A stretch of 12,367 bases of DNA, from positions 1-12,367 of the forward strand of contig JALWEZ010000114.1 of NCBI GenBank assembly GCA_027039165.1, read 5' to 3'. Position numbers and translations under genes: made by a program. Under the pieces are notes generated by a model. It did not search any database and was not told the DNA's origin. It saw nothing but the letters and a program-made list of their open reading frames with translations. This DNA is from Candidatus Moraniibacteriota bacterium (GTDB taxonomy: Bacteria; Patescibacteriota; Minisyncoccia; Moranbacterales; GCA-2747515). Positions 1 through 12,367 of this stretch are shown piece after piece. The stretch's first letter is position 1, and every line of letters starts with the position of its first letter.

Positions 1-39
1 AGTCCACACTTCACACTTTGTTCTTTTTGAATTATTCAT
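1..39 (-). CDS. Probable separate glycyl-radical domain of class III ribonucleotide reductase (partial, runs off window)
   Basis: An ATG at 39 opens a frame of 13 codons, MNNSKRTKCEVWT, that continues past the window edge. The stretch KRTKCEVWT resembles the segment that normally lies between the zinc-binding CPKC motif of NrdD and its glycyl-radical motif (RVxGY), which the upstream nrdD gene lacks. The radical glycine itself would lie just outside the window, so the assignment rests on the lead-in sequence and on what is missing from the neighbour. The frame differs from that of nrdD: it has its own in-frame stop at 55-57 and starts 35 nt after the nrdD stop, so one frameshift cannot rejoin the two. 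No clear ribosome-binding site precedes the ATG; translation may depend on coupling to nrdD. Alternatively it is a remnant after a real disruption. Confidence 0.6.
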   Translation of the reverse strand, partial: MNNSKRTKCEVWT

Positions 40-74
40 ATATTTTTTATTATTTTATTATTTAAATTAATTAT

Positions 75-2189
75 TTATTTTTCTGGATGCTCACTTGTAT
101 GCTTTTTCCTTAATTCACTTTCTTCTTCTTTTACATTTTTAATTCCCAGTTCCTCATCACACTTTGGACAATACTCATGTTCTCCTGAGAGATAACCATG
201 CTTTGGACAAATTGAGAACGTTGGCGTTATCGTGATATAAGGAAGATGAAACTGAGTCAAAACTTTTTTTACCAAGTTTGCACAAGCTTTTGCAGAACTA
301 ATCTTCTCATTCATATAGCAGTGAAGTACAGTGCCTCCAGTATACTTTGTCTGCAATTCATCTTGAAGCTCAAGTGCTTCAAACACATCATCAGTATATC
401 CCACTGGTAGCTGAGAAGAATTAGTATAATAAGGAGCTTCTTTTGTGCCTGCTTGCAATATATCTGGATACAACTCTTGATCTGTTTTTGCAAATCGGTA
501 AGTTGTTCCTTCTCCAGGAGTCGCTTCTAGATTATACAGATTTCCAGTTTCTTCTTGGAATTCTGACAATTTATCTCTCATGTATTCCAAAACTTCAATA
601 GCAAATTTCTGCCCAAATTCTGTAGTTATATTATCACTGTCTTTTGTGTAGTTTCTAATTGCTTCATTTAGACCGTTTATACCAATTGTAGAAAAATGAC
701 TGTTTAGACTATTTAAATATCGCTTAGTAAAGGGAAATAAACCTTTATCTAACCATTTTTGAATAACCTTTCTTTTTATTTCTAATGAAGTTTTGGCAAG
801 TTCCATTAGATAGTCAAGTTGCTTATAAAATCCTTCTTTGTCTCCTGCATATACATATCCAAGTCTTGCAGCATTTATTGTAACCACACCAATTGAACCA
901 GTCATCTCAGCAGAACCAAACAATCCCCCACCTCGTTTTCTAAGTTCTTTTAGATCGAGTTGTAACCTGCAACACATAGAACGCACGTCACCTGGATCTA
1001 AATCTGAATTTATAAAGTTTTGAAAATATGGAGTACCGTATTTTGCAGTCATTTCAAATAAAGGCTGGGTTTTTGGGTCATCCCAATCAAAATCTTTGGT
1101 AATATTGTAAGTTGGAATTGGAAAAGTAAATGTTCTACCTTTTACATCCCCTGCCTGCATTACTTCTATAAAAGCCTTGTTTATAATGTCCATTTCTTCT
1201 TGAAGTTCTCCATAAGTATACTTAAACGGCTTTCCACCAAGAAGTAATTTTTTATCTTTCATATCCTCTGGACACTTCCAGTCAAGTGTAATATTTGTAA
1301 AAGGAGTTTGAGTTCCCCATCTTGATGGAATATTTAAATTAAACACAAATGACTGCATGTTTTGAAACACATATTCGTATAGCTTATCATAAACATATTT
1401 TTCAAACTTTTCTTTGTTCTCCGCCCTCCCACAATAATCACTTATATCTTTTTCTATTTCTTCTTTCTTCTTTTTTACAAATGGAGCTAAATATGTATCA
1501 AAACTAGAGAATGCCTGTGCTCCAGCCCATTCGTTTTGTAAAGTACCCAAAAAATTCACCATTTGAGCCACTGCACTACTTAAATGTTTTGGCGAACCTG
1601 ATTCAATTTTGTTGTCAACTCCATTAAATCCCTCTTCAAGCAAAGCCCGCAAGCTCCATCCAGCACAGTATCCTGTAAACATACTCAAATCATGAATATG
1701 ATAATCAGCGTTTCTATGAGCCTCACCTACTACTTTTGGATATACATGAGAAAGCCAATAATTCGCAGTTACTTTACCAGAAGTGTTGAGAATCATACCT
1801 CCGACTGAATATCCTTGATTTGCATTTTCGTTAACTCTCCAATCCAGTTGATCAAGGTACTCTTCCATAGTATCACTAACTGTTACCATCACATCTTTAT
1901 CAAGTCTCTCCTCTGCTCTTTTTTGTCTATACAGAATATATGATTTAGCAACTTCTGAATATCCATTGTCTATCAAAACATTTTCTACTGTGTCTTGAAT
2001 TTGCTCTACTGTTGGTTTTTCTAGATTTTTCTTAGTAATTTTTCCTACAATGCTTTTTACTAGCTCATCAATGTCTATTTTTTTAGAGCTTTTTGATACC
2101 GCAACAGCTTTTTTTATAGCTTCTTTTATTTTTGTTTTATCAAACGACACTACACTACCATCTCTTTTTCTTACTTCTTTTATGTTCAT
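75..2189 (-). CDS. nrdD: Anaerobic (class III) ribonucleoside-triphosphate reductase, large subunit, lacking the C-terminal glycyl-radical segment
   Basis: Reduces ribonucleotides to deoxyribonucleotides without oxygen; a partner activase (NrdG, not in the window) normally makes the glycyl radical. Counting 704 residues from ATG 2189, an N-terminal ATP-cone (about 3-100, RKRDGSVVSFDKTKI) is followed by the catalytic barrel with YCAGWS (Cys175), NIPSRWGTQTPFTN (about 286-299) and MCCRL (Cys406/407, the usual thiyl-radical position). Near the end are zinc-site motifs CPKHG (Cys661) and YCPKC (Cys674/677). The protein then ends in a charged tail with no RVxGY radical motif. A separate downstream ORF seems to carry that segment. 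A longer reading would start at TTG 2222, but neither start has a ribosome-binding site; I chose the ATG because the ATP-cone begins just after it. NrdR boxes lie upstream. Confidence 0.93.
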   Translation of the reverse strand: MNIKEVRKRDGSVVSFDKTKIKEAIKKAVAVSKSSKKIDIDELVKSIVGKITKKNLEKPTVEQIQDTVENVLIDNGYSEVAKSYILYRQKRAEERLDKDVMVTVSDTMEEYLDQLDWRVNENANQGYSVGGMILNTSGKVTANYWLSHVYPKVVGEAHRNADYHIHDLSMFTGYCAGWSLRALLEEGFNGVDNKIESGSPKHLSSAVAQMVNFLGTLQNEWAGAQAFSSFDTYLAPFVKKKKEEIEKDISDYCGRAENKEKFEKYVYDKLYEYVFQNMQSFVFNLNIPSRWGTQTPFTNITLDWKCPEDMKDKKLLLGGKPFKYTYGELQEEMDIINKAFIEVMQAGDVKGRTFTFPIPTYNITKDFDWDDPKTQPLFEMTAKYGTPYFQNFINSDLDPGDVRSMCCRLQLDLKELRKRGGGLFGSAEMTGSIGVVTINAARLGYVYAGDKEGFYKQLDYLMELAKTSLEIKRKVIQKWLDKGLFPFTKRYLNSLNSHFSTIGINGLNEAIRNYTKDSDNITTEFGQKFAIEVLEYMRDKLSEFQEETGNLYNLEATPGEGTTYRFAKTDQELYPDILQAGTKEAPYYTNSSQLPVGYTDDVFEALELQDELQTKYTGGTVLHCYMNEKISSAKACANLVKKVLTQFHLPYITITPTFSICPKHGYLSGEHEYCPKCDEELGIKNVKEEESELRKKHTSEHPEK

Positions 2190-2265
2190 AATCAAACATT
2201 TAGGTAAATAATTTTTAGTCAAAAAAACAGCAGGTTATACAAAACCTTTCTATTGACCTAAACTT

Positions 2266-2274
2266 AGTATAACA
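2266..2274 (-). promoter_or_regulatory. Candidate extended -10 promoter of nrdD
   Basis: Read on the minus strand this is TGTTATACT, a TGn-extended -10 element about 77 nt before the ATG at 2189. No good -35 lies 16-18 nt upstream, which is tolerated for extended -10 promoters. It would place the NrdR boxes upstream of the start site. The alternative promoter is the TTGACA-type one at 2315-2341. Confidence 0.45.
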
Positions 2275-2312
2275 CACTTTTTAAAAAATGTTTTCCACAT
2301 ATAAACTAATAA

Positions 2313-2357
2313 ACACTATATATAGTGTTTTATTTTGTCAAATACCACAAGTAGTGT
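2313..2357 (-). promoter_or_regulatory. Tandem NrdR boxes upstream of nrdD
   Basis: Positions 2313-2328 read ACACTATATATAGTGT, a perfect palindrome matching the NrdR box consensus. A second, degenerate box at 2342-2357 reads ACACTACTTGTGGTAT on the minus strand, with one intact half-site and 11 of 16 matches to the first box. The gap between boxes is 13 nt, slightly shorter than the 15-16 nt typical for NrdR pairs. NrdR is the ATP/dATP-sensing repressor of ribonucleotide reductase genes, so nrdD is very probably NrdR-controlled. nrdR itself is not in the window. Confidence 0.85.
2315..2341 (-). promoter_or_regulatory. Candidate nrdD promoter overlapping the NrdR box
   Basis: On the minus strand TTGACA (2336-2341) is followed after 15 nt by TATAGT (2315-2320). 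The -10 lies inside the perfect NrdR box, a classical arrangement for repression. The spacer is shorter than the ideal 17 nt, so the extended -10 at 2266-2274 remains an alternative start. Confidence 0.45.
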
Positions 2358-2382
2358 TTTCTAAAATTTATCCACAGATACA

Positions 2383-2413
2383 AAAAACTTCGAGTATACG
2401 CCCCGAAGTTTTT
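2383..2413 (-). terminator. Rho-independent terminator of the transporter operon
   Basis: AAAAACTTCG (2383-2392) pairs with CGAAGTTTTT (2404-2413), a 10-bp stem with an 11-nt loop. On the minus strand the stem runs into a tract of six T residues. It lies 30 nt after the stop codon of the transporter gene and upstream of the nrdD promoter region. Confidence 0.8.
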
Positions 2414-2442
2414 CATTGAAATGACAGTTTTAAAAACCTGTT

Positions 2443-3393
2443 TTAAAAAATTTTATGTACGAATTTTGTGTACCACGCCCCTATTTTTATTTGAAATACA
2501 AACGCAATTGAAATTATAATAGCCATCCTAAAACCAACTTCTCCAAAAGACGTTACAGCTACAGCTAGAGCAATTGCTAAATGTCTAAGAGATGTTCCAA
2601 AAACTAAAGCTAGTGCATCTTTTCTGTTAAAAAACATTTTGCCTATTATAGTACTTATTGTATAATTCAATCCATAAAAAAACAAAAGTGGAATTATATA
2701 AAATAAAATTTTCGTTGGATTATCTACTATAAACTCTGCTTTCATAGCCATCACAGAAAAAACCATTCCAAGAACTCCAATAACTGAAACTGATCCCATT
2801 TTTTGACCAAATTTTTCTTTATAATCTTTTTGACCTGTCTTTTTTATAACAAAATATCTAGTTATGACTCCCAAAATCAAAGGTAAAAGTATAACTAATA
2901 AAATCTTTTTGGTTATAAGTAAAAAATTAATTTCTATCACTTCACCCATAAATTGATACAAATAAAGCGGTGCTAAAAACGAAGCAGTAAGTAAGCTAAA
3001 TACTGATATTCTGATAGCTGCAGGGAGATTTCCTTTTGTAAGTCCTGTAAAAGCAAGAGTCATACTACCTGTTGGTAAAAGTGCGATAAGGAATAGCCCC
3101 ACAGCATCTAAATGTGAGTTTGCAAAAAATATTCTACCAAGCCCAAAAGCTATGAGAGGAATTACTATGAAATTAAGTACAATTGATGCTACTTTCAGCT
3201 TAGTATTTGGTTTTTCAAATAATTTTGCTAAATTTAAATTTACCATTTGAGGATAAATCATCAAAAACGTAAAAGGCAAAATAAAAGATTTGAGAAATGA
3301 AGTATTTATTGAATTTCCAGCAATTATTCCTATCACAATTGCAATAGGAAGCATATACACCAAATTCTTTTGTAAATATTTTAATATCTTCAT
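2443..3393 (-). CDS. BASS/ACR3-like membrane transporter (bile acid:sodium symporter or arsenite permease superfamily)
   Basis: A 316-residue, very hydrophobic protein with about nine to ten membrane segments and short polar loops, close to the usual 300-350 residue size of this superfamily. The segment LPTGSMTLAFTGLTKGN (about 106-122) resembles the conserved mid-protein motif of BASS/ACR3 transporters. A second conserved stretch, SLRHLAIALAVAVTSFGE, near residue 265 corresponds to the other crossover region. The Cys used by ACR3 arsenite permeases in the first motif is not present here; the position reads PTGS. Arsenite export is therefore not established, and an organic anion or other metalloid is equally possible. 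The gene follows a CsoR-family repressor gene by 14 nt, indicating one operon in which the transporter is the regulated output. No Shine-Dalgarno sequence is visible before the ATG. Confidence 0.75.
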   Translation of the reverse strand: MKILKYLQKNLVYMLPIAIVIGIIAGNSINTSFLKSFILPFTFLMIYPQMVNLNLAKLFEKPNTKLKVASIVLNFIVIPLIAFGLGRIFFANSHLDAVGLFLIALLPTGSMTLAFTGLTKGNLPAAIRISVFSLLTASFLAPLYLYQFMGEVIEINFLLITKKILLVILLPLILGVITRYFVIKKTGQKDYKEKFGQKMGSVSVIGVLGMVFSVMAMKAEFIVDNPTKILFYIIPLLFFYGLNYTISTIIGKMFFNRKDALALVFGTSLRHLAIALAVAVTSFGEVGFRMAIIISIAFVFQIKIGAWYTKFVHKIF

Positions 3394-3407
3394 TTTTATA
3401 AAATTAT

Positions 3408-3689
3408 TTATTTATTCTGCGCATTTTGGACAATTTTTATAATTTCTTCTTTCATTTTTAGAAGGTCTTCTTTGCTTTTTTGTTTATCTGCAACATTTTC
3501 TATATAATCATCTACATATTTTTCAAGTATATGATTATTTGCATTTTTCATAAGACCTATCACACTCAAGCTTTGTTGAATTGTATCAAAACACTGCGAA
3601 TCATCATTTTCAATTCTTGCAATTATCTTGTCTAAGCTAGTACGTGCTTTTTTAAGCGCAATTATTATTTTTTTCTTATTTTCCTGCAT
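3408..3689 (-). CDS. CsoR/RcnR-family (DUF156) transcriptional repressor with altered metal-site residues
   Basis: A 93-residue all-helical protein of the size and pattern of CsoR-family repressors, which bind DNA as tetramers and release it on binding copper, nickel, sulfur species or formaldehyde. The first helix (ALKKARTSLDKIIARIE, 11-27) and the Cys-containing second helix (SQCFDTIQQSLSVIGLMKNA, 31-50) align well. Cys33 matches the first CsoR ligand, but the positions 25 and 29 residues later, normally His and Cys in the copper sensor, are Tyr58 and Tyr62. A classical Cu(I) site is therefore missing, and the inducer is unknown. It is the first gene of an operon with the BASS/ACR3-like transporter. 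Its promoter is overlapped by a palindrome, which suggests autorepression. No clear ribosome-binding site is seen. Confidence 0.8.
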   Translation of the reverse strand: MQENKKKIIIALKKARTSLDKIIARIENDDSQCFDTIQQSLSVIGLMKNANNHILEKYVDDYIENVADKQKSKEDLLKMKEEIIKIVQNAQNK

Positions 3690-3722
3690 AAAAGTAAAAT
3701 ATTATTAAATTACCAACACCAC

Positions 3723-3761
3723 TGGTATAGGTATTATACCAAAAATATAAAATAATGTCAA
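3723..3761 (-). promoter_or_regulatory. Consensus promoter with overlapping operator palindrome
   Basis: On the minus strand TTGACA (3756-3761), a 17-nt spacer and TATAAT (3733-3738) form a fully consensus sigma-70 promoter. A palindrome, TGGTATA (3723-3729) and TATACCA (3735-3741) around GGTAT, covers the -10. Its position suits a repressor that blocks polymerase, most simply the CsoR-like protein encoded just downstream. The spaced GG/CC dyad in an AT-rich frame resembles operators of that family. Confidence 0.85.
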
Positions 3762-3774
3762 ATTTTTGTAAATT
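3755..3774. repeat. Repeated AT-rich -35 region, copy 1
   Basis: The 18 nt ATGTCAAATTTTTGTAAA at 3755-3772 recur exactly at 4943-4960. In both places the sequence supplies the TTGACA -35 element and the AT-rich stretch upstream of it, and lies just beyond a terminator hairpin. It may be an UP-element-containing promoter module shared by the repressor operon and the 308-codon gene. Confidence 0.6.
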
Positions 3775-3806
3775 AAAAAGGAGTTACCACGTTGTGATAA
3801 ACTCCT
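3774..3806 (-). terminator. Rho-independent terminator of the 308-codon gene
   Basis: AGGAGTT (3779-3785) pairs with AACTCCT (3800-3806), with a further CAC/GTG pairing inside the loop. On the minus strand the stem is followed by TTTTTAATTT. It begins about 5 nt after the TGA stop of the gene ending at 3812, which supports TGA as a true stop. Confidence 0.85.
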
Positions 3807-3811
3807 ATTAG

Positions 3812-4738
3812 TCAGTAACCATCTGGAAATATTTCATCCAGAATATCTGACAGTTTCCTGTCATCATAGCCCTTCACCCAGTCCCAGAAGATTTTCCGAG
3901 CTTCTTCTAGAGTAAATTTGGAAAACTCACTCCAATCTGCATCTTGAGAAAATCTTCTTCTATTGTATCTAGGTTGCAGCCTTCCAAACTTCTCACTAGA
4001 TATAATAATACCAGTCGGTTTAGTAACATACTTGACCATTAACTTGATATCTCTATCCTTTAGGGTCCTATAAGACTCCATATAATAACCGATATCAGGA
4101 GCACCATCTCCCTTTTCACCGAAAAGACGAGTTACAGGTGTCCAGTTATCCTGGTTTTCATGATTAGCCACACTCCACATTGGACCCATTAATGGTACTT
4201 GATAAGTTGGTATAGCATCATAAATTGAGTCTGCTGTTGCCGGTTTAAACTCAACGTCTTCTGGGATGTAGCGCTCTCCGAAATCATCTGCTACATACTC
4301 CCAATCCTCGTAACCCATATGAGCTACCTGGGATCTCTCTTCGAAATACCCCTCTCTAGGATTTACCCAGTATGGAGTAAATTCCACATTATTGAAAATT
4401 CTAACATCAGCTAGATCATATAGATCTTTGCATTCAGAAATTTTCACCTCTACAGGACCATCGCTCTCATCTAAGACCTTAGCGTCTCTTATAAGAGTAA
4501 CTCTTGTAGAATCTGGTATCTCAGCGATACCTATCAGAACATCGTTCCATGTGTCCACATACCAAGGTCTATTATGAGACGCTCCAAGTGCTATTAGCCA
4601 CTGAGCAAGTGACTCAATTGTGGTACAAACGTGCACCACACCAAATTCTTCGTTTGGAAACGCAACCACGTTTCCATTCTCTAATATGGAACAGTTTCCT
4701 GTTCTCAAATTATTAGTTAATATTCTAAACACTTTCAT
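3812..4738 (-). CDS. Unrecognised 308-residue cytoplasmic protein, compositional outlier
   Basis: I do not recognise a family. There is no signal peptide or membrane segment, so it is probably soluble and cytoplasmic. The protein is acidic, with many Trp and Tyr residues (RPWYVDTWNDV, YEDWEYVADDFGERY, MGPMWSV) and a C-terminal region (WSEFSKFTLEEARKIFWDW, then a short DDRKLSDILDEIF helix). In hand-counted 60-nt lines its GC is about 35-48%, against about 28% in a sampled neighbouring gene line. It uses more C/G-ending codons, which suggests transfer from another genome. It is a single-gene unit: its own promoter, a leader of about 175 nt and a terminator immediately after the TGA stop. The start is well supported by AAAGGAT placed about 5 nt before the ATG. 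Confidence 0.85.
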   Translation of the reverse strand: MKVFRILTNNLRTGNCSILENGNVVAFPNEEFGVVHVCTTIESLAQWLIALGASHNRPWYVDTWNDVLIGIAEIPDSTRVTLIRDAKVLDESDGPVEVKISECKDLYDLADVRIFNNVEFTPYWVNPREGYFEERSQVAHMGYEDWEYVADDFGERYIPEDVEFKPATADSIYDAIPTYQVPLMGPMWSVANHENQDNWTPVTRLFGEKGDGAPDIGYYMESYRTLKDRDIKLMVKYVTKPTGIIISSEKFGRLQPRYNRRRFSQDADWSEFSKFTLEEARKIFWDWVKGYDDRKLSDILDEIFPDGY

Positions 4739-4914
4739 TTCTTATCCTTTTCTGAAAATTTAATCTGATATGGAATATAAACTATTTTACTTGCTTTTAG
4801 CTTTCCCGTGAAACCTAACTAAACAAGGGTAAATTCTTCCTAAATCTTTTACCGAGACACTTCTTATTCTTTTTTTAAATAACTATCTATTTCCCCTATT
4901 TCAGGTACTTTATT
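4739..4914 (-). other. Long 5' leader of the 308-codon gene, with possible coding relics or leader peptide
   Basis: The predicted transcript start near 4914 leaves about 175 untranslated nt. Read on the minus strand they contain two protein-like frames without ATG: one ends ...VPEIGEIDSYLKKE at a TAA, and the other, in the -1 frame (4787-4882), contains VKDLGRIYPCLVRFHG before a TAA at 4787-4789. They overlap at a run of seven A residues, so a slippage or an old frameshift could join them. A GGTAAA/TTTACC hairpin lies in the middle. This could be a translated regulatory leader or the tail of a gene carried in with the 308-codon gene. I do not match it to a known riboswitch. Confidence 0.35.
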
Positions 4915-4920
4915 AAATAT

Positions 4921-4949
4921 AATATAACACGAAATATAGGCTATGTCAA
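4921..4949 (-). promoter_or_regulatory. Promoter of the 308-codon gene
   Basis: TTGACA (4944-4949), a 17-nt spacer and TATATT (4921-4926) on the minus strand form a strong sigma-70 promoter. The -10 is preceded by TGT. The -35 lies in the 18-nt sequence shared with the repressor operon promoter. Confidence 0.75.
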
Positions 4950-4960
4950 ATTTTTGTAAA
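4943..4960. repeat. Repeated AT-rich -35 region, copy 2
   Basis: Exact 18-nt match to 3755-3772, again located between a terminator and a promoter. See that entry for its likely role. Confidence 0.6.
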
Positions 4961-4967
4961 ATTTAAA

Positions 4968-4993
4968 AGAACGTTTTGTGTTAAAAACGTTCT
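4968..4993 (-). terminator. Terminator overlapping the stop codon of the DUF1294 gene
   Basis: AGAACGTTTT (4968-4977) and AAAACGTTCT (4984-4993) form a perfect 10-bp stem with a 6-nt loop. The hairpin includes part of the TAG stop codon at 4992-4994 and is followed on the minus strand by TTTTAAATTTT. Confidence 0.8.
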
Positions 4994-5423
4994 AAAAAAC
5001 TATCAAACTTTTGAATGTAAAAAATAATATAATCAAATGAAACCAAAGAGCTAATTTACTTATAAATCTAAAAGATTCTTTCTGTGTTTTATGTCTCAAT
5101 AAAGATTGTACAAAAAATGTAGAAAGACTTCCACCAAAAAACTCAATTAGATGTAGAGTTTTCTCTGGTACTCTCATATTTCTATGTAAAGCTAGAGCTT
5201 TATCTAGCGCAAACATTATAAATGTTGTAATGTTTATAGCTATGTAATAAAGAGAAAACGCACTACTTAATTTTGTTATACGAAGACTAACCAAAAAGGC
5301 TACTATAAACACACCTATAGCTATAAAGTTATATTTAGATATTATAGAAAAACCTTTATAAGTTATTGGTTGCTTAAAATATCTTTTTTGTTTTGAATAT
5401 TTTTTTCTTTTTTTTCTTGCCAC
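4992..5423 (-). CDS. DUF1294-family membrane protein
   Basis: A 143-residue protein with a very basic N-terminus (ARKKRKKYSKQKRY) and about four hydrophobic segments. The central signature matches DUF1294: FIMFALDKALALHRNMRVPEKTLH (about 67-90) with the DK and RxPEKxLH motifs, then a GGS segment and SLLRHKTQKESFR (about 107-119) with the conserved RHKTxKxSF motif. The biochemical role of this family is not established. The start is GTG; no ATG is available upstream in frame, and AAAGGAT lies 5 nt before the GTG, so this start is well supported. It is transcribed alone, with the cassette terminator at 5543-5566 upstream and its own terminator at the stop codon. No convincing promoter was found in the 119 nt before it. 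Confidence 0.85.
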   Translation of the reverse strand: MARKKRKKYSKQKRYFKQPITYKGFSIISKYNFIAIGVFIVAFLVSLRITKLSSAFSLYYIAINITTFIMFALDKALALHRNMRVPEKTLHLIEFFGGSLSTFFVQSLLRHKTQKESFRFISKLALWFHLIILFFTFKSLIVF

Positions 5424-5542
5424 TTTTTATCCTTTTTTTTTAAAATTTTTGAAATATACTGTTAAAAAACACTGCGTTCCTAAGTCAATATTAGACTAAC
5501 ATAATCTTTGGATATAATCAAATTTCGTTTGTAAATAAAAAA

Positions 5543-5566
5543 ATAACCACTAAGTTTAGTGGTTAT
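5543..5566 (-). terminator. Strong terminator closing the downstream cassette copy
   Basis: ATAACCACTA (5543-5552) pairs perfectly with TAGTGGTTAT (5557-5566) around AGTT. On the minus strand the stem is followed directly by a run of seven T residues. It lies 7 nt after the TAG stop of the gene at 5573. Confidence 0.93.
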
Positions 5567-5572
5567 ATAAAA

Positions 5573-6655
5573 CTACTCTATTTTCACTGCTTCTCCTCTC
5601 TCAAGAGCTTCCTTTTGCTCATCAGATAATCCGTCTAATGCATCATCTAATATCACATTATCATCTTCATCGTCATCTTCTTCATAATCTATTTTTGGTT
5701 CTTCTTTTTTAGCTTCAGAACTCTGAGCGCCTTCTAGAATATCCAACTGCTCTTCAGTTAAAAGATTTTTTAATTTATCTTTATAAGTTTTTTCTATTTC
5801 TTTTTTTCTTTCACTTGCCCAAGTATAGTTATTGTTTTCTTCTAATTGCGCAGATGTTTTGAAATTCTCTTTCATCTTCCACTCAGCTATTTCTATAACT
5901 TTTTTCTTTTCTTCTTCTGAGAAATAGTTATCTAAATCCTCAGCAGACTCAATACCATACTTTTTCTTATTTATACTTGGAAAAGCTAACAAAAGCTGAT
6001 TCTTTTTCATAGATTCTATATCAATTAGACCTGAATTTTCTTCATCTCCATACATTTTTTGAAATTCTTCTTCTGACAAAATTTCTCTCTCTTTTGCATT
6101 TGCAATTCTTATAGCTTCATTTAAAGCTTCCATGTATTGAACATATGATAATTTATCATACATATAATCATTTATAATAATCTCACCTTTATATGCTATC
6201 TCATATGAAGTTTCCATAAGTTTTCGCATCTTTTCTTTACTTAAATCATCTCCAAACATCTCTTTAAAATTTCTTTTAATCTCAAACTCAAACCCATCGT
6301 CTCCATATCTTGATGCATGATTTATTTTATCTTTTTGCTTTTTGTTTGGCGTACCGATTTGCGCTACATAATTTTTGATAAAATTAACACTGGAATTACT
6401 GTTAGACTTAGCTTTTGAAGTATTTTTATCTGAAATCACAATTTTTTTTGATTTAGTTTTGTTTAAATCTAAATTTCTAGAATCATGAACTAAATTTTGT
6501 GAATCATTTACTTCAGTAACTATTTCTGCTACAACTTCTTTTTTAGAAGACTTATTTGCATCAGTTTGCTTTGCATTTGCATCATCTTTGTGCATTATTA
6601 CTCCTGTAAGAAGTGCTAGAGCTACAATTGAGCTTATTGTTATTGTCTTTTTCAT
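5573..6655 (-). CDS. Secreted acidic helical protein with LTxEQ-like motifs (cassette copy 1, third gene)
   Basis: I recognise no named family. Residues 1-28 form a Sec signal peptide (ISSIVALALLTGVIM, cleavage after ANA28), then a Ser/Asn/Lys-rich linker runs to about residue 110. A helical domain follows that is clearly shared with the protein at 8307-9359: ARYGDDGFE-type start (about 114-123), a hydrophobic helical middle and LLLAFPSI (221-228). Three motifs of the form L(S/T)xE(E/Q) sit at 193-197 (LSEEE), 299-303 (LTEEQ) and 343-347 (LSDEQ); the middle one has the same residue number in both paralogues. LTxxQ motifs occur in the periplasmic Spy/CpxP family, but overall similarity to it is unproven. 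The C-terminus carries a strongly acidic run (about 322-334). AAAGGA precedes the ATG by 6 nt. It follows the membrane gene by 104 nt and ends the cassette. Confidence 0.85.
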   Translation of the reverse strand: MKKTITISSIVALALLTGVIMHKDDANAKQTDANKSSKKEVVAEIVTEVNDSQNLVHDSRNLDLNKTKSKKIVISDKNTSKAKSNSNSSVNFIKNYVAQIGTPNKKQKDKINHASRYGDDGFEFEIKRNFKEMFGDDLSKEKMRKLMETSYEIAYKGEIIINDYMYDKLSYVQYMEALNEAIRIANAKEREILSEEEFQKMYGDEENSGLIDIESMKKNQLLLAFPSINKKKYGIESAEDLDNYFSEEEKKKVIEIAEWKMKENFKTSAQLEENNNYTWASERKKEIEKTYKDKLKNLLTEEQLDILEGAQSSEAKKEEPKIDYEEDDDEDDNVILDDALDGLSDEQKEALERGEAVKIE

Positions 6656-6683
6656 TGTTTTTTCCTTTCAATAAATATTTTAA

Positions 6684-6694
6684 TGTACGACAAA
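6684..6694 (-). promoter_or_regulatory. Conserved leader motif before the helical secreted gene, copy 1
   Basis: The minus-strand octamer TTTGTCGT (6687-6694) lies about 31 nt before the ATG at 6655. The same octamer lies about 28 nt before the ATG of the paralogue (9388-9395), and TCGTCAAAATT precedes the membrane gene at 9899. Both paralogous leaders then end in AAGGAAAAAACA(A)TG. This suggests a conserved cis element or RNA target rather than ordinary spacing. Confidence 0.4.
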
Positions 6695-6708
6695 TTTAAC
6701 ATTTTTCC

Positions 6709-6732
6709 AGAAATTATTTTATAATTATTTCT
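6709..6732 (-). other. Imperfect hairpin between membrane and helical genes, copy 1
   Basis: AGAAAT (6709-6714) pairs with ATTTCT (6727-6732), extended by three more pairs after one mismatch, around TTTA. No T-tract follows on the minus strand, so it is not a good terminator; it could be an RNA processing or stabilising element. Evidence is weak because the region is very AT-rich. Confidence 0.3.
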
Positions 6733-6759
6733 AGAAGAATATTTCATTTTTAACAATGC

Positions 6760-7257
6760 TTATTTCCATAAATACTTTATATCAAATTCACGTTTATTCA
6801 AAATAATATGACCACAAAAAGCAGATGCTAAAAACACACTAAGTGCTGGAAATAGAAGTAATAAGGAACCTGCCATAGTTTCAGATAAATAAGCTACAAA
6901 ACTAGAGTTGCATTTAATTAAATTAAAAACATCATACATAAAAGCATAAACAAATTCTACACTAAAAGCCAAACCTAATAATGCTGATATTATAACAAAA
7001 ACAAACCTATCCTTTTGAAAAATGTGTGCAAATATAAAACCCCATATAGATACATATATAATTCTCATGATAAAATTTAAAAAAATTTCATTCCAAGAGA
7101 GTGGTGGAATTGGTTTAGGAGTTACCACATAATGAAATAAATTACTAAAAAATGCTGTAAAAAATAAAACAAACACACCTATAAATACCATAGCTATGCT
7201 AAGTTTTACTATTTGTAATATTATAAAACTAAAGTCCTTTTTTTGTAATTTTGACAT
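6760..7257 (-). CDS. Four-helix membrane protein (cassette copy 1, second gene)
   Basis: A 165-residue protein with four predicted membrane segments (about 13-42, 58-80, 84-110 and 125-150), short cytoplasmic-type ends with Lys (MSKLQKKD and LNKREFDIKYLWK) and a proline-rich loop (TPKPIPPLSW, about 46-55). I recognise no family. It stands between the secreted basic gene (76 nt upstream) and the secreted helical gene (104 nt downstream), as does the 132-residue membrane protein in the other cassette copy. The two membrane proteins share size class and topology but little sequence that I can align. It could be a transport, anchoring or protective partner of the secreted proteins; that is inference from position only. 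The ribosome-binding site is weak. Confidence 0.75.
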   Translation of the reverse strand: MSKLQKKDFSFIILQIVKLSIAMVFIGVFVLFFTAFFSNLFHYVVTPKPIPPLSWNEIFLNFIMRIIYVSIWGFIFAHIFQKDRFVFVIISALLGLAFSVEFVYAFMYDVFNLIKCNSSFVAYLSETMAGSLLLLFPALSVFLASAFCGHIILNKREFDIKYLWK

Positions 7258-7294
7258 TTCACTACTTTATATAATTATTAGATAAAAAATCTAT

Positions 7295-7324
7295 TAGCGA
7301 TAATTATTGCTATAATTACCGCTA
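7295..7324 (-). other. Strong intercistronic hairpin after the basic secreted gene, copy 1
   Basis: TAGCG (7295-7299) pairs with CGCTA (7320-7324), continued by a G-U pair and by TAATTAT (7301-7307) with ATAATTA (7312-7318): 13 pairs around a 4-nt loop. On the minus strand six T residues follow 6 nt after the stem, so it could be a partial terminator that lowers expression of the membrane gene, or it could stabilise the first cistron's mRNA. It lies 9 nt after the stop of the basic gene. Confidence 0.6.
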
Positions 7325-7333
7325 AATTACCTA

Positions 7334-7864
7334 TTATTTATGATAACACGCTCTTTTGCAAGCTTTCCAATTATGACCATATGTACCAAATAAATCAAAA
7401 GAATGTACGCGATTCATATATCCTCTTGTATTACTACTTATTCTAGCATATTTATTTATTCCATACAAAAACATATTAGTTGCTTGGTGACAAAGTCCCC
7501 ATATTGCATAATTATAATCTTGAGTCTTTAAAGAACACGCTGGATGTCTAGTGGTACATTTTGAACCTCTGAAGCCTTTTTTAGATTTACTGTTTCTTAT
7601 CGCAAGAAATCTAGATACAGTATGACCTCCCCTATTTTCTCCTACTTGAGAAAAACATCCATAATTTCTGATGGTTCTCATATGATGATGTTTTTTCTTC
7701 TTTCTCTTTACACATGCATATGTATGATCTCCAAATGCACCCAACCATCCATTTGCGCGTCTGGCCTTTACCTTGTATTCATAGACCTGTTTACCTGCAT
7801 TAGCTTGTGTTAGAGTAAGAATTGATATAAGAGCTGAGCTTATCAATAATTTGTTAAGTTTCAT
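7334..7864 (-). CDS. Secreted basic Cys/His-rich protein (cassette copy 1, first gene)
   Basis: A 176-residue protein of no family I can name. A Sec signal peptide (LLISSALISILTLTQANA) is cut after Ala23. The mature chain is very basic, with KRKKKKHHH at 53-61 and seven Cys. Residues shared with the paralogue at 10055-10594 are GDHTYxC (45-51), RNYGC (66-70), a Cys in the middle region, GLCHQxxN (123-130) and RGYxN, YGxxW and a late Cys near the end. His47 ahead of a helix headed by Cys125 resembles the His-then-Cys order of permuted papain-like folds, so a secreted cysteine hydrolase or transferase is possible but unproven; disulfide-stabilised binding protein is the alternative. AAAGGAT precedes the ATG by 5 nt. 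The strong promoter at 7969-7997 drives it. Confidence 0.85.
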   Translation of the reverse strand: MKLNKLLISSALISILTLTQANAGKQVYEYKVKARRANGWLGAFGDHTYACVKRKKKKHHHMRTIRNYGCFSQVGENRGGHTVSRFLAIRNSKSKKGFRGSKCTTRHPACSLKTQDYNYAIWGLCHQATNMFLYGINKYARISSNTRGYMNRVHSFDLFGTYGHNWKACKRACYHK

Positions 7865-7880
7865 TTTTTATCCTTTCAGA

Positions 7881-7896
7881 GTGTCTTTTGTGACAC
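7881..7896 (-). other. Small hairpin in the 5' UTR of the basic secreted gene, copy 1
   Basis: GTGTC (7881-7885) and GACAC (7892-7896) form a 5-bp stem about 5 nt upstream of the AAAGGAT ribosome-binding site. It may stabilise the leader or tune ribosome access. Nothing equivalent is seen in copy 2. Confidence 0.35.
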
Positions 7897-7920
7897 GGTA
7901 TTTTTTTAGCGTGACGTTGC

Positions 7921-7963
7921 ACGTAAAAATATTTACGTAATCGATGTTTGAATTTGATTACGT
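7921..7963. promoter_or_regulatory. Overlapping ACGT-containing inverted repeats in the leader of cassette copy 1
   Basis: ACGTAAA (7921-7927) faces TTTACGT (7932-7938) across 4 nt. ACGTAATC (7935-7942) faces GATTACGT (7956-7963) across 13 nt. The two dyads share the central ACGT, giving three related half-sites just downstream of the -10 element at 7969. This is a plausible operator for a dimeric or tetrameric regulator. The sequence is absent from copy 2. Confidence 0.5.
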
Positions 7964-7968
7964 TTCTA

Positions 7969-7997
7969 AGTATATATATATATATATATCTTGTCAA
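7969..7997 (-). promoter_or_regulatory. Promoter of cassette copy 1 with TA-repeat spacer
   Basis: On the minus strand TTGACA (7992-7997), a spacer of exactly 17 nt and TATACT (7969-7974) form a near-consensus promoter. The spacer is almost wholly a TA dinucleotide repeat, (TA)9T at 7971-7989. Its homologue at 10663-10681 has the same -35 and -10 hexamers but only 7 nt between them. Repeat-length change in such a spacer would directly alter promoter strength. Confidence 0.8.
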
Positions 7998-8029
7998 TAC
8001 CCAGTTTTCCACAGCTTATTCACTTATTT

Positions 8030-8082
8030 TAGACAGACTCTTAAATAGACTATCAATTCCACACTTTTTTTCGCATTCTTTA
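8030..8082 (-). pseudogene. Relic of the 3' end of the alpha-glucan phosphorylase gene
   Basis: Minus-strand sequence AAAGAATGCGAAAAAAAGTG and the following GGAATTGATAGT align with the last codons and stop region of the intact gene at 10725. No meaningful reading frame upstream remains, so only the tail was duplicated. It is a scar, not a functional gene. Confidence 0.65.
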
Positions 8083-8097
8083 AGTTATTGAATTAAA

Positions 8098-8118
8098 AAA
8101 AGGAACTAATTCCCTTTT
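8098..8118 (-). terminator. Rho-independent terminator in the inter-cassette gap
   Basis: AAAAGG (8098-8103) pairs with CCTTTT on the opposite arm (to 8118), 8 bp including a G-U pair, around a 5-nt loop; on the minus strand seven T residues follow. The previous gene already has its own terminator at 8263-8282, so this one is either a backup or ends a short transcript from 8119-8262. Confidence 0.7.
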
Positions 8119-8262
8119 ATTAGTTTTTTTCTTTGCTCAAATGAAATTGTGTCTGAAGAATGCAGATATTTTTGTTTTCGTTTAGTGTATGTTTATCTAT
8201 GATAACATTTTGTATTCAGATTTATAAAATAATCCAAAGTGTTACAATTAATAACAAAAAAA
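8119..8262 (-). other. Inter-cassette spacer with a short gene-like frame (8120-8215)
   Basis: No gene can be supported. A minus-strand frame of 31 codons (TGA at 8216-8218 to TAA at 8120-8122) contains DKHTLNENKNICILQTQFHL but has no ATG and no ribosome-binding site. It ends in two consecutive TAA codons immediately before the terminator at 8098-8118, the arrangement seen at real gene ends here. It may be the tail of a decayed gene or part of a small RNA bounded by terminators. Confidence 0.25.
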
Positions 8263-8282
8263 CACCTAGACGTTACTAGGTG
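8263..8282 (-). terminator. Terminator closing cassette copy 2
   Basis: CACCTAG (8263-8269) pairs perfectly with CTAGGTG (8276-8282) around a 6-nt loop. On the minus strand seven T residues follow directly. It starts 24 nt after the TAA stop of the gene at 8307. Confidence 0.92.
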
Positions 8283-8306
8283 CTGTTATAAATAAGTTTG
8301 CTACTA

Positions 8307-9359
8307 TTATTCAGTTGGTACAAATACACTACCATTACGCTCAAGAATTTCTTGTTGCTCTGGTGTAAGCATTGCATCCACTGTTTCTTCATCCAACTCT
8401 TCTTGCTCATGTTCTACTTCAACTTTAGGTTCATCAAAAAACAATTTTTGTTGTTCTGGTGTGAGTAATTGTCGTATAGCCATTTCAGAATTTTTCTTAC
8501 TTTTATTTAACTGTTCAATAACCTCACTTCCAGAAATTTCTCCCCTATTGAATTTTGCATCTAATCTTAATGAAAGTTTCATATTATTATCATCTATTTC
8601 AATAAGTTTTTCAACTACATCAACAGGAACATATTCATACAAATCTTCCAATACTTTAATATTAGGATTATTTTGTTTAATATTTGGAAAAGCTGAGAAA
8701 AACTCTTTTTCTCTATATGCTTCCATGTCTATTTCTGTTTCATCGGCATTATATTCTCCTACATACTTTTCATATTGTTCTTCTGTGAGAAATTCTCTAT
8801 GCTCAGCGTCTGTAAGTTTCATGTTTGTGTTTATCGCTTTTAAAAGAAATTCTTTTGTAATCTCTCCATTAGCGTATTGATTAATGAGTACATCATGACG
8901 ATAAGCACTAGACTTTGCAGATTTGATTATCTTGTTAATAACTTCACTACTTACATCTCCAAGTCTATCTTTTATCATTGTACGCAATCCAGCTTCAAAA
9001 CCTTCTTCGCCATAACGAGCATCCTTTTCCAAAATTGCAAAATCCTTTTCTGTAGGTTTCTTTATATCCAAAATATGTTTCATATAAATAGACTCTTCAT
9101 TCGAGTCATCAATTGCTTTATTTAAGCTACTATTTACTTCGTTTGAGTTATTACTTTCTCTTTTAGGAAAAACTTTAACTACAGTAATGTTTTTATCTAA
9201 TGAAGTACCCTCAACTTTATTTTGCTTAGGTAAGTATTTTTTCTCCTTAAAAACCTCTTTTGTTTTAGCCTGAGCGCTATTATTGTAATATAATGTTACA
9301 GAAGTAATAGAAACAAAAGCGACAACACTACCAACTAATAAAACTTTCTTTGATTTCAT
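8307..9359 (-). CDS. Secreted acidic helical protein with LTxEQ motifs (cassette copy 2, third gene)
   Basis: A 350-residue paralogue of the protein at 5573-6655. The signal peptide (KKVLLVGSVVAFVSITSVTLYY) is cut after AQA31. A low-complexity Lys/Asn/Ser linker leads to the shared helical domain, beginning DARYGEEGFE (113-122) and including FFSAFPNI. LTxEQ motifs are at 191-195, 299-303 and 331-335, here all canonical (LTEEQ, LTPEQ, LTPEQ), spaced like those of the paralogue. The C-terminal 50 residues are acidic (VEVEHEQEELDEE). Divergence between the copies is high, so the duplication is old or they evolved under different pressures. AAGGA precedes the ATG. The gene follows the small membrane gene by 141 nt and ends at a strong terminator. 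Function unknown; a periplasmic chaperone, inhibitor or immunity partner of the basic protein is a guess from charge and context. Confidence 0.85.
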   Translation of the reverse strand: MKSKKVLLVGSVVAFVSITSVTLYYNNSAQAKTKEVFKEKKYLPKQNKVEGTSLDKNITVVKVFPKRESNNSNEVNSSLNKAIDDSNEESIYMKHILDIKKPTEKDFAILEKDARYGEEGFEAGLRTMIKDRLGDVSSEVINKIIKSAKSSAYRHDVLINQYANGEITKEFLLKAINTNMKLTDAEHREFLTEEQYEKYVGEYNADETEIDMEAYREKEFFSAFPNIKQNNPNIKVLEDLYEYVPVDVVEKLIEIDDNNMKLSLRLDAKFNRGEISGSEVIEQLNKSKKNSEMAIRQLLTPEQQKLFFDEPKVEVEHEQEELDEETVDAMLTPEQQEILERNGSVFVPTE

Positions 9360-9380
9360 GTTTTTTCCTTATTGTTAATG

Positions 9381-9405
9381 AATTTTGACGACAAAATAAT
9401 CGCCT
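9381..9405 (-). promoter_or_regulatory. Leader element shared by two genes of cassette copy 2 (site A)
   Basis: AATTTTGACGA (9381-9391), 9 nt, CGCCT (9401-9405), about 22 nt before the start at 9359. The same arrangement with an 8-nt gap occurs at 9918-9941, 19 nt before the start at 9899. On the mRNA both read AGGCG...TCGTCAAAATT. It may be a repeated regulatory element acting on each cistron separately. A TATAAA -10-like sequence lies beside it (9407-9412). Confidence 0.5.
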
Positions 9406-9500
9406 GTTTATAATCTACGTTTTAAAGTAAATCCAAATTTTTACCAAAAAATCTAATTAAGAAAACATCAAACAGACTTTCACAAAATATAAACAGTCGA

Positions 9501-9899
9501 TTACTTTTTCTTTTTCTTGATAAAAACAGTTATCAAAGACAAAAACAAAAACACTGGAGTAAGCACAGCCACACAAAACAGATATCCAAATAAGAAAATT
9601 TCTGTTATTTTACTATACATCTCTTTTGAAACATGTTCTAATAATAGACTATCTGCCAACATATATAATATCTCTCTAGTAAAAATAACCGAAAATACAT
9701 ACACAATTGATATAATAATTACTTGAACTAAATCAGGTTTTCTAAAATGTGTATAAATAACTGATGTGAGTATTGCAATTATTGCAACAATATACTTTGT
9801 AAATGCACCTTTTAGAAAAACAAGTAAAGTACTTGGAACTAAAAACAAAAAAAGTAACATGAACAAAACCCAAAAAATATCTTTTTTATTAAATTTCAT
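9501..9899 (-). CDS. Small four-helix membrane protein (cassette copy 2, second gene)
   Basis: A 132-residue protein with four hydrophobic segments (about 8-28, 34-52, 57-80 and 99-126) and a run of five Lys at the C-terminus (IKKKKK), which places that end in the cytoplasm by the positive-inside rule. I recognise no family. It occupies the same slot as the 165-residue membrane protein of the other copy, between the basic and the helical secreted genes. Sequence similarity between the two is not evident by eye: this one lacks the proline-rich loop. Either it diverged fast or one copy was replaced. The leader carries the AGGCG...TCGTCAAAATT element instead of a Shine-Dalgarno sequence, so the exact start is only moderately supported. 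Confidence 0.75.
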   Translation of the reverse strand: MKFNKKDIFWVLFMLLFLFLVPSTLLVFLKGAFTKYIVAIIAILTSVIYTHFRKPDLVQVIIISIVYVFSVIFTREILYMLADSLLLEHVSKEMYSKITEIFLFGYLFCVAVLTPVFLFLSLITVFIKKKKK

Positions 9900-9917
9900 A
9901 AATTTTTATTATTTGTA

Positions 9918-9941
9918 AATTTTGACGAAAAACAACCGCCT
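9918..9941 (-). promoter_or_regulatory. Leader element shared by two genes of cassette copy 2 (site B)
   Basis: AATTTTGACGA (9918-9928), 8 nt, CGCCT (9937-9941), 19 nt before the start of the membrane gene. It is the partner of the element at 9381-9405. Confidence 0.5.
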
Positions 9942-9945
9942 ACTT

Positions 9946-9971
9946 ATGTTTTATAGTATATTATAAAACAT
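9946..9971. other. Palindrome containing a -10-like TATAAT
   Basis: ATGTTTTATA (9946-9955) pairs with TATAAAACAT (9962-9971) across 6 nt. On the minus strand the dyad contains TATAAT (9960-9965), so it could be an operator over an internal promoter for the membrane gene, though no matching -35 is visible. It could also act as an RNA hairpin. Confidence 0.45.
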
Positions 9972-10010
9972 AAATAATCAACTATTTTTAATATTTGTAA
10001 AAAATTTAAC

Positions 10011-10043
10011 TGTAGGAGGTGTATATTTATACACACTCCTACA
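10011..10043 (-). terminator. Terminator or attenuator after the basic secreted gene, copy 2
   Basis: TGTAGGAG (10011-10018) pairs with CTCCTACA (10036-10043), and inside it GTGTAT pairs with ATACAC, giving at least 14 pairs around a short loop with one bulge. On the minus strand GTTAAATTTTTT follows, and on the plus strand a direct run of six T. It starts 11 nt after the stop at 10055. As in copy 1, a strong hairpin separates the first gene from the next, suggesting the secreted basic protein is made in excess of the others. Confidence 0.8.
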
Positions 10044-10054
10044 TTTTTTAACCT

Positions 10055-10594
10055 TTAGTAAGCATAAAATTTACAACTCCACCACCCTTTGCCATATCTT
10101 CCATATTGATAATAAGAATATGTACGCCCATTGAGATAACCATGGATATTGCGACCAAATCCAGCATGCGCTTTTCTTGCACCATACAATACTCTATTAG
10201 CTTCTTGATGACAAAGTCCATGCCACCCATATACCATCTTACAAGCACCCTCATAACGAATTTTTTGAGCAGAATCTTTTCGATGTTCTGTATAGCTAGT
10301 TTTTTTAACAAGCATTCTTTGACGCGTTGAGCCTCCAGTATTTCCACCAAATTGATTATGGCAACCATAATTTCTTACAGTTTTCAACTTTCCACTCTTT
10401 TTACGCTTCTTTTTGATGCATACATAGGTATGATCTCCTAAAAAACGCCCTATATTCCACTTATAAATATACAATTCAGCGGGTCTAGCTTTTAGCTTAT
10501 ACTCGTAGTATTTACTACCAGCAATAGCTTGCGTTGGTGTCGATAACATTGTTATTACTGCCAATGTTAGAGCAGATGAAATTAATTTTTTCAA
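10055..10594 (-). CDS. Secreted basic Cys/His-rich protein (cassette copy 2, first gene)
   Basis: A 179-residue paralogue of the protein at 7334-7864. The signal peptide ends near AIA25. The mature protein is basic (KKKRKKSGKLK, 61-71) with five Cys, all at positions that also hold Cys in the paralogue: HTYVC (59), NYGC (78), EGAC (118), GLCHQ (128) and WWSC (174). Asp54-His55, Asn75, His129-Gln130 and Asn133 are conserved as well. Many Tyr and Gly residues fill the C-terminal part (GRTYSYYQYGRYGKGWW). The start is TTG: no ATG lies near the signal peptide, AAAGGAT stands 5 nt before the TTG, and the paralogue aligns from here. The promoter block upstream has only a 7-nt spacer, so expression may come by read-through from the phosphorylase gene 130 nt upstream. 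Function unknown; see copy 1 for the fold hypothesis. Confidence 0.85.
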   Translation of the reverse strand: MKKLISSALTLAVITMLSTPTQAIAGSKYYEYKLKARPAELYIYKWNIGRFLGDHTYVCIKKKRKKSGKLKTVRNYGCHNQFGGNTGGSTRQRMLVKKTSYTEHRKDSAQKIRYEGACKMVYGWHGLCHQEANRVLYGARKAHAGFGRNIHGYLNGRTYSYYQYGRYGKGWWSCKFYAY

Positions 10595-10662
10595 AATTAA
10601 TCCTTTGTTAATTTGAGCTATAAATATAAAACTAAGTTTAGTCTCATATCTACGCGTTTATT

Positions 10663-10681
10663 AGTATATATATCTTGTCAA
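10663..10681 (-). promoter_or_regulatory. Promoter-like block of cassette copy 2 with contracted TA spacer
   Basis: TTGACA (10676-10681) and TATACT (10663-10668) are both conserved relative to copy 1, but the TA tract between them is (TA)4T (10665-10673) instead of (TA)9T. The spacer is therefore 7 nt, 10 nt less than in copy 1, and too short for normal polymerase contact. No good replacement -10 is seen 16-18 nt from the -35. The promoter is predicted to be inactive in this state. Confidence 0.6.
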
Positions 10682-10755
10682 TACCAAGTTTTCCACAACT
10701 TATCCACTTATTTTAATTAAACTATCAAGTCCACATTTTTCTCTCATATTCTTTG
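10663..10755. repeat. Duplicated promoter and phosphorylase-tail block, copy 2 (source copy)
   Basis: Homologous to 7969-8082. Its right end is the living 3' end of the phosphorylase gene. Two DnaA-box-like nonamers, TTTTCCACA (10689-10697) and TTATCCACT (10700-10708), lie beside the -35; in the other copy the first is kept (8005-8013) and the second is TTATTCACT. Confidence 0.8.
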
Positions 10756-12362: not shown

Positions 12363-12367
12363 AATTT

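Follow-up and report, generated by a model that had tools for sequence, protein, structure and literature searches.

How can a class III ribonucleotide reductase (RNR) work if its catalytic subunit ends before the radical glycine? DNA synthesis needs ribonucleotide reduction, and the question is raised by a 12,367-nt stretch of a Candidatus Moraniibacteriota metagenome-assembled genome (MAG; assembly GCA_027039165.1, contig JALWEZ010000114.1, positions 1–12,367; hereafter the window), in which the reductase gene nrdD is followed by the first codons of a small open reading frame (ORF). An earlier note on this DNA proposed that the glycyl-radical segment is encoded in that ORF, as a separate glycyl-radical domain (GRD). 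Comparison with related loci leads us to a probability of nearly nine in ten (about 0.88) that the locus encodes a two-gene class III RNR, in which the radical loop would be a separate small protein acting in trans.

The window nrdD (75..2189, minus strand) reads as 704 aa from an ATG at 2189 to a TAA at 77–75, or as 715 aa from an alternative upstream TTG at 2222, and encodes, in order, an ATP cone, a class III barrel with an MCCR finger loop, a zinc motif and a charged tail before the stop. Pfam matches (715-aa numbering) consisted of an ATP-cone (residues 16–103, 84 bits) and NRDD (residues 132–690, 602 bits), and the NCBIfam model PRK08270 matched with 1087 bits (cutoff 548). The NRDD match spans profile positions 1–529 of 562, with the last 33 positions, including the radical glycine, missing, and neither the translation nor the Pfam match places a radical glycine in the nrdD polypeptide; the earlier description of a gene that stops after its zinc motif and charged tail, lacking a radical motif, is thus borne out. 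The finger-loop MCCR (405–408) and the zinc ligands (C661/H664/C674/C677) are invariant among 46 aligned sequences, and the barrel therefore looks functional. Another record (P0001, 704 aa) is 99% identical to the window NrdD and has an identical C-terminal end.

Downstream of nrdD, an intergenic gap of 35 nt containing only A and T (40..74, minus) leads to an ATG at 39–37, which opens the first 13 codons of the separate GRD gene (MNNSKRTKCEVWT; 1..39, minus). The small ORF has its own upstream TAA at 55–57 in a frame offset from that of nrdD, and the gap holds stops in the remaining two frames too; both coordinates given in the earlier note, which had concluded that a single indel could not fuse the two frames, were reproduced. 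The first base of the window seems to be the start of its contig (the locus has no left flank), so that the small ORF is readable only to there and runs off just ahead of the position of the RVMG(Y/F) motif. A start codon arising by chance is hardly likely, since 12 of the 13 residues are identical to those of an ORF at the same 35-nt distance in a relative (L010, below) and since the sole match of a GRD profile (A1, built from separate GRDs; threshold E 0.001) in the whole source genome was this small ORF, weak because it is cut (E 0.0011). The source genome (1.15 Mb, 265 contigs, 92% complete) contained no second NRDD match, which was the check proposed for a full-length nrdD elsewhere, and no match to PF01228 (Gly_radical) at E 10. 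The observation that nrdD is split from the small ORF is confirmed.

The missing portion can be read in L010, titled a Moranbacteria MAG, whose nrdD is 86% identical and which, after an equal gap of 35 nt, has a full-length small ORF of 54 aa. This ORF contains RTKCEVWTRVMGF and, after it, RP, FN, GK and R residues; it carries the radical motif that the earlier note had suggested looking for, as RVMGF, and the radical glycine sits in a separate ORF in 31 further loci. The L010 ORF corresponds to NRDD positions 530–562, and six other loci to 530-, 531- or 532–562 (all above the curated cut-off), while PF01228 had no match at E 1 in the small ORFs of seven relatives. Across 32 separate GRDs, 14 columns are invariant, including the R, M and G of the motif. 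The border can be placed on Thermotoga maritima NrdD, where the window NrdD aligns as far as residue 610 and the GRD profile covers 616–645 with its Gly on 621, the radical site of that enzyme (PMC4493059, in excerpt); the cut therefore falls between the zinc ribbon and the radical loop. In many relatives an nrdG-like gene lies near the nrdD/GRD pair, though these genes were mostly called by cysteine-motif pattern alone (in L170 the neighbour is a radical-SAM protein), and the window contig ends before that position.

The best 80 of 454 loci from a genome scan, ranked by likeness to the window nrdD, encoded the GRD as a separate ORF in 60 cases and fused in 19; the remaining locus contained none, its GRD being encoded elsewhere in that genome. 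By title, separate GRDs occur in Patescibacteria groups, Pseudomonadota (13/15), Bacteroidota (7/7), Campylobacterota (10/10), Actinomycetota (2/16) and others, though one of the two separate Actinomycetota (L088) groups with Flavobacterium rows in the nrdD tree and may be misassigned. Two of the 60 (L045 and L058) have an nrdD that is open only if TGA is read as sense (22 and 35 such codons; NCBI table 25), giving open frames of 737 and 732 codons that likewise lack the motif. By profile A1, 77 of 379 genomes in the phylum of the window matched (stand-alone only, 43; long frame only, 33; both, 1); hand counts gave 130 of 298 (127 stand-alone only) in the phylum of an Arcobacteraceae genome (G432, locus L079) and 18 of 398 (12 stand-alone, 5 long, 1 unclear with a frame of 275) in that of G430, an alphaproteobacterium by title. 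Close relatives in the family of the window have stand-alone GRDs wherever they match, which answers the proposed comparison with relatives, and the pattern is wider than the earlier note guessed. Among 20 genomes searched for a class I/II reductase (PF02867), five had no match (G181, G124, G224, G075 and G037); G181, a single contig of 99% completeness, has one nrdD body and one stand-alone GRD.

The layout also occurs in cultured bacteria. On pHG1 of Cupriavidus necator H16 are an nrdD of 676 aa (76.2 kDa, no GRD), a 66-aa ORF annotated nrdD (H16_RS32675), and nrdG; Bradyrhizobium diazoefficiens pNK6c and Sulfuricurvum kujiense pSULKU01 carry the same three genes, and a replicon of Paracoccus denitrificans has both the large and the small ORF. 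Siedow et al. (1999) are said to have given the H16 NrdD as 76.2 kDa, the mass of the GRD-less ORF, and may mention the small ORF. The H16 NrdDG has been reported essential for denitrification and the metallidurans genes are listed as Rmet_5137 and Rmet_5139, with one number skipped. Public annotation names the small ORFs nrdD or anaerobic ribonucleoside-triphosphate reductase and, among named matches, also hypothetical protein or oxidoreductase. Surveys that demand the radical glycine within NrdD would probably misjudge split enzymes as broken.

In a tree of 132 nrdD sequences (quick method, midpoint root, so that gain and loss are not distinguishable; L013, L045, L058 and L146 left out, L039 stateless), at least 16 layout changes were counted. 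The window falls in a well-supported group of 21 nrdDs, all with the tiny GRD of its family, and the 14 fused Actinomycetota group in a single clade whose surroundings are mostly split. Two loci stand apart. L162 (1961–5909) holds two adjoining nrdD genes, with the radical motif SRVVGK in one and SRVVGY in the other. L163 (3319–5499), on a very long branch of the tree, has a very distant nrdD (27% identity) lacking a terminal radical motif, then a small ORF with SRVVGYY, and is possibly an independent split.

Several points weigh against the two-gene reading. The radical motif itself is cut off in the window, and the source genome encodes a PF02867 (class I/II-type) reductase (C253:3477–5021), so that this organism may not depend on the class III enzyme. 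The GRD profile reaches the solved NrdDs at E 0.34 only. Because A1 was built from separate GRDs, the counts favour the separate form and distant fused NrdDs may be missed, and with the selection of the 80 loci added to this bias, the fractions are not an estimate for all NrdDs. Genomes with no A1 match at the threshold made up 9/54 close relatives, 302/379 genomes of the window phylum, 168/298 of the G432 phylum and 380/398 of the G430 phylum. One locus (L085) is possibly a plain frameshift within the zinc motif and not a split.

That the split is a pseudogene, a frameshift or an assembly error in this MAG has a next to negligible probability, as the break of the contig within the small ORF and the 265 contigs of the assembly are set against the equal layout and gap length in L010, the equal NrdD end in P0001, the stand-alone-only state of nearly all matching genomes in the G432 phylum and low ratios of nonsynonymous to synonymous substitution (dN/dS). 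One type-A pair (55 codons) had a ratio of 0.15 and one spare-type pair (73 codons) a ratio of 0.05, and a third pair was saturated; the GRD is, by this measure, under purifying selection.

One polypeptide would also arise if translation crossed the gap by programmed frameshifting, bypass or readthrough, and in some genomes (G124, L154) the two pieces do share a frame with at least one stop between them. This route is very improbable. In 58 countable loci, the GRD takes all three frames relative to nrdD (frame 0 in 9, 1 in 29, 2 in 20) and the distance from the nrdD stop to the motif varies from −2605 to +866 nt, with 55 of the 58 between 20 and 250 nt past the stop; in the window, moreover, the gap itself holds stops. 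In L043 the GRD is found upstream of nrdD, in G430 it is on a different contig, and in G697 the two genes are at about 1.89 Mb and 9.5 kb of one 1.95-Mb contig, while in L170, L172, L177 and L180 the GRD adjoins an nrdG-like gene in a 7-kb stretch that has no nrdD. Varying order, spacing and frame, together with far-apart genes in two genomes, leave recoding no explanation, and the unlinked genes exclude it as a general account. No intron or intein was seen, the window and L010 having only the 35-nt AT gap between the pieces. The separate encoding claimed in the earlier note thus rests on 60 of the 80 loci, unlinked and reversed orders and a clean division of the NRDD profile. Comparison across these genomes shows complementary pieces, a conserved motif, purifying selection, association with nrdG and an existence unlinked to nrdD, and it is well supported that the separate genes would form one enzyme with a trans-acting GRD.

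In the proposed mechanism, NrdD would supply the ATP cone, the barrel with its finger-loop cysteines and the zinc ribbon, and a separate protein of about 54 residues would carry the radical-glycine loop. NrdG would install the radical on the glycine of the small protein, which would dock non-covalently in the barrel at the place of the fused C-terminal loop of T. maritima NrdD. Oxygen cleaves the class III enzyme at the glycyl radical (PMC3019208, in excerpt), and a cleaved small protein might then be exchanged for a fresh copy; with the fragile part on a 54-residue protein, cells would be able to replace that and not a 700-residue enzyme. We infer the docking, the glycyl radical on the small protein, the exchange after oxygen cleavage and a role in phages.

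Four known systems bear comparison. Fused class III NrdDs (Escherichia coli, phage T4, T. maritima) share the ATP cone, barrel, finger-loop cysteines, zinc ribbon, an RVxG(Y/F)-type motif and, in many relatives, a nearby nrdG-like gene, but here a separate gene encodes the last about 33 profile positions, the radical glycine among them. GrcA/YfiD and phage T4 Y06I, the spare parts of pyruvate formate-lyase, are likewise small autonomous glycyl-radical proteins acting in trans, with a phage version, and are activated by the activase of the partner enzyme (PMC8683613, in excerpt). The earlier note had called GrcA/YfiD the only familiar domain of this kind, which agrees with the same excerpt, where YfiD and Y06I alone are given as validated and spare parts for other glycyl radical enzymes as possible. 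Here, in contrast, the domain is NRDD 530–562 and not PF01228, its partner is NrdD, and, whereas GrcA/YfiD is a backup, the GRD is the only radical domain detected in most genomes found; it most likely works like GrcA/YfiD while not being a member of that family. RNR genes in pieces are known from phages, where nrdD is split by introns, inteins or fragmentation (including phiAS4, 949 and c-st; PMC3653736, in excerpt), but here distant lineages are cut at one and the same domain border, and the small piece also occurs on its own. NrdJa/NrdJb of Pseudomonas aeruginosa is an RNR of two polypeptides (PMC4520616, PMC4860495, in excerpt), though of another class (class II) and with no glycyl radical. 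Among the matches listed from the open-licence literature, no description of a separate NrdD radical domain was found in the titles, abstract openings and excerpts available, those of PMC9531940, PMC9669993, PMC11226230, PMC4390871, PMC11528403, PMC3322345, PMC3019208, PMC4860495, PMC8683613, PMC2864759, PMC2795772, PMC4493059, PMC3653736 and PMC12288474 included.

Whether the small protein is exchanged can be approached through the layouts of 54 relatives, including the source genome, whose truncated ORF narrowly misses the threshold. A1 matched 45 of these: 25 with a stand-alone frame only, 12 with a long frame only and 8 with both. The 25 stand-alone genomes divide into type A (n = 12), with a tiny GRD as in the family of the window, and type B (n = 13), with open frames of about 90–120 aa that have their own CxxC...CxxC N-terminus. 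The 8 genomes with both encode an nrdD with a radical motif in cis, then a type-B-like GRD and, in 7 of the 8, an nrdG-like gene; the cis nrdD ORF is complete in 6 and cut by a contig end (L140) or a run of N (L135) in the others. The trans GRDs of G024 (type B), G048 and G037 (both) match NRDD from 505–510 on, so that the zinc-ribbon part is included. Cis and trans copies are more alike in the motif core within than between these genomes (0.86 vs 0.78), and of 40320 assignments only the real one and one other reach the observed likeness (kinship ignored). The layout, absent from the window, is the one expected of a spare part, and points to a route in which the domain was duplicated and the cis copy lost later.

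Lone GRDs were also found in phage-like sequences. G513 and G648, of the G432 phylum, have three GRD matches each, some in prophage-like stretches (L172–L176), and the extra copies lie in stretches that have no nrdD or nrdG-like genes, among phage-family matches (in G648 an endolysin and a tail fibre, in G513 families whose function is unknown). One prophage GRD matches phrog_4132, of unknown function, and the L176 copy is identical to L264 of IMG/VR. Scans of IMG/VR returned 177 and 32 related stretches, from which the best 80 of the 177 and 31 of the second scan were examined (several share a contig across scans). Of these 111 viral loci, 109 had a stand-alone GRD whose flanks, covered for up to 4 kb, showed neither an nrdD match nor an nrdG motif; the other two were a GRD in a longer frame with no nrdD, and L266, with nrdD and an nrdG-like gene. 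When 50 whole viral records (up to 211 kb, possibly fragments) were compared with NRDD, 49 matched, 48 by the C-terminal end only and one (6.8 kb) with the body as well. Neighbours, taken as 111 ORFs from 30 loci chosen among 150 of 260, include phage lysozymes, GH108 endolysins, integrases, capsid and tail proteins, and in L190, L196, L269 and L274 the GRD is near endolysin or lysozyme genes. RVMGY was present in 82 of 84 distinct viral segments, a count inflated by the search pattern, and no clear lone GRD copy was found in a named phage collection.

With no nrdD body in 49 of the 50 viral records, the target of the phage GRDs, if they have one, would be a host protein. Instead of being spare parts, they could act on the host reductase or on NrdG as decoys or regulators, which would suit the missing nrdD bodies and the position of some GRDs among lysis genes; this is nonetheless unlikely, as the radical motif and its flanks have been kept, which a mere decoy would not need.

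The stronger alternative is an obligate split subunit with no exchange, the small piece staying bound for the life of the enzyme. A single GRD match in most matching genomes fits this, as does the frequent switching between fused, split and double layouts on the tree, and we rate it as a serious possibility, somewhat below an even chance. A plain split leaves unexplained the cis and trans copies in 8 of 54 relatives, with one such trans pair at a dN/dS of 0.05, and against it also stand the GRDs that occur alone in viral records and prophage-like stretches and those that adjoin nrdG away from nrdD (L170, L172, L177 and L180). A GRD replaceable after oxygen damage, as the earlier note had suggested, is plausible, and the cis-plus-trans genomes and the lone viral copies point there. 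The full proposal, for which the odds may come close to even, is that the radical loop is an exchangeable, mobile subunit: the sole such domain in many anaerobes, a spare part with a zinc ribbon in others whose enzyme has a radical domain of its own, and in phages a plug-in for the host NrdD by which the making of DNA precursors could be maintained or regained under oxygen exposure, in the manner of T4 Y06I with pyruvate formate-lyase. If true, the lone phage copies would be a new phage route to the DNA precursor supply of the host, and with these loci the spare-part idea can be put to a direct test in bacteria that grow in culture (Cupriavidus necator, Sulfuricurvum).

Several further genes of the window, all on the minus strand, are of other kinds. 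Upstream of nrdD are a sodium/bile-acid symporter family protein (2443–3393) and a small metal-sensitive repressor family protein (3408–3689). The ORF at 10725–12365, which reaches the far end of the window, resembles an alpha-glucan phosphorylase. Two pairs of putative secreted proteins, look-alikes by eye (5573–6655 with 8307–9359 and 7334–7864 with 10055–10594), have an arrangement that suggests duplication of a two-gene unit.
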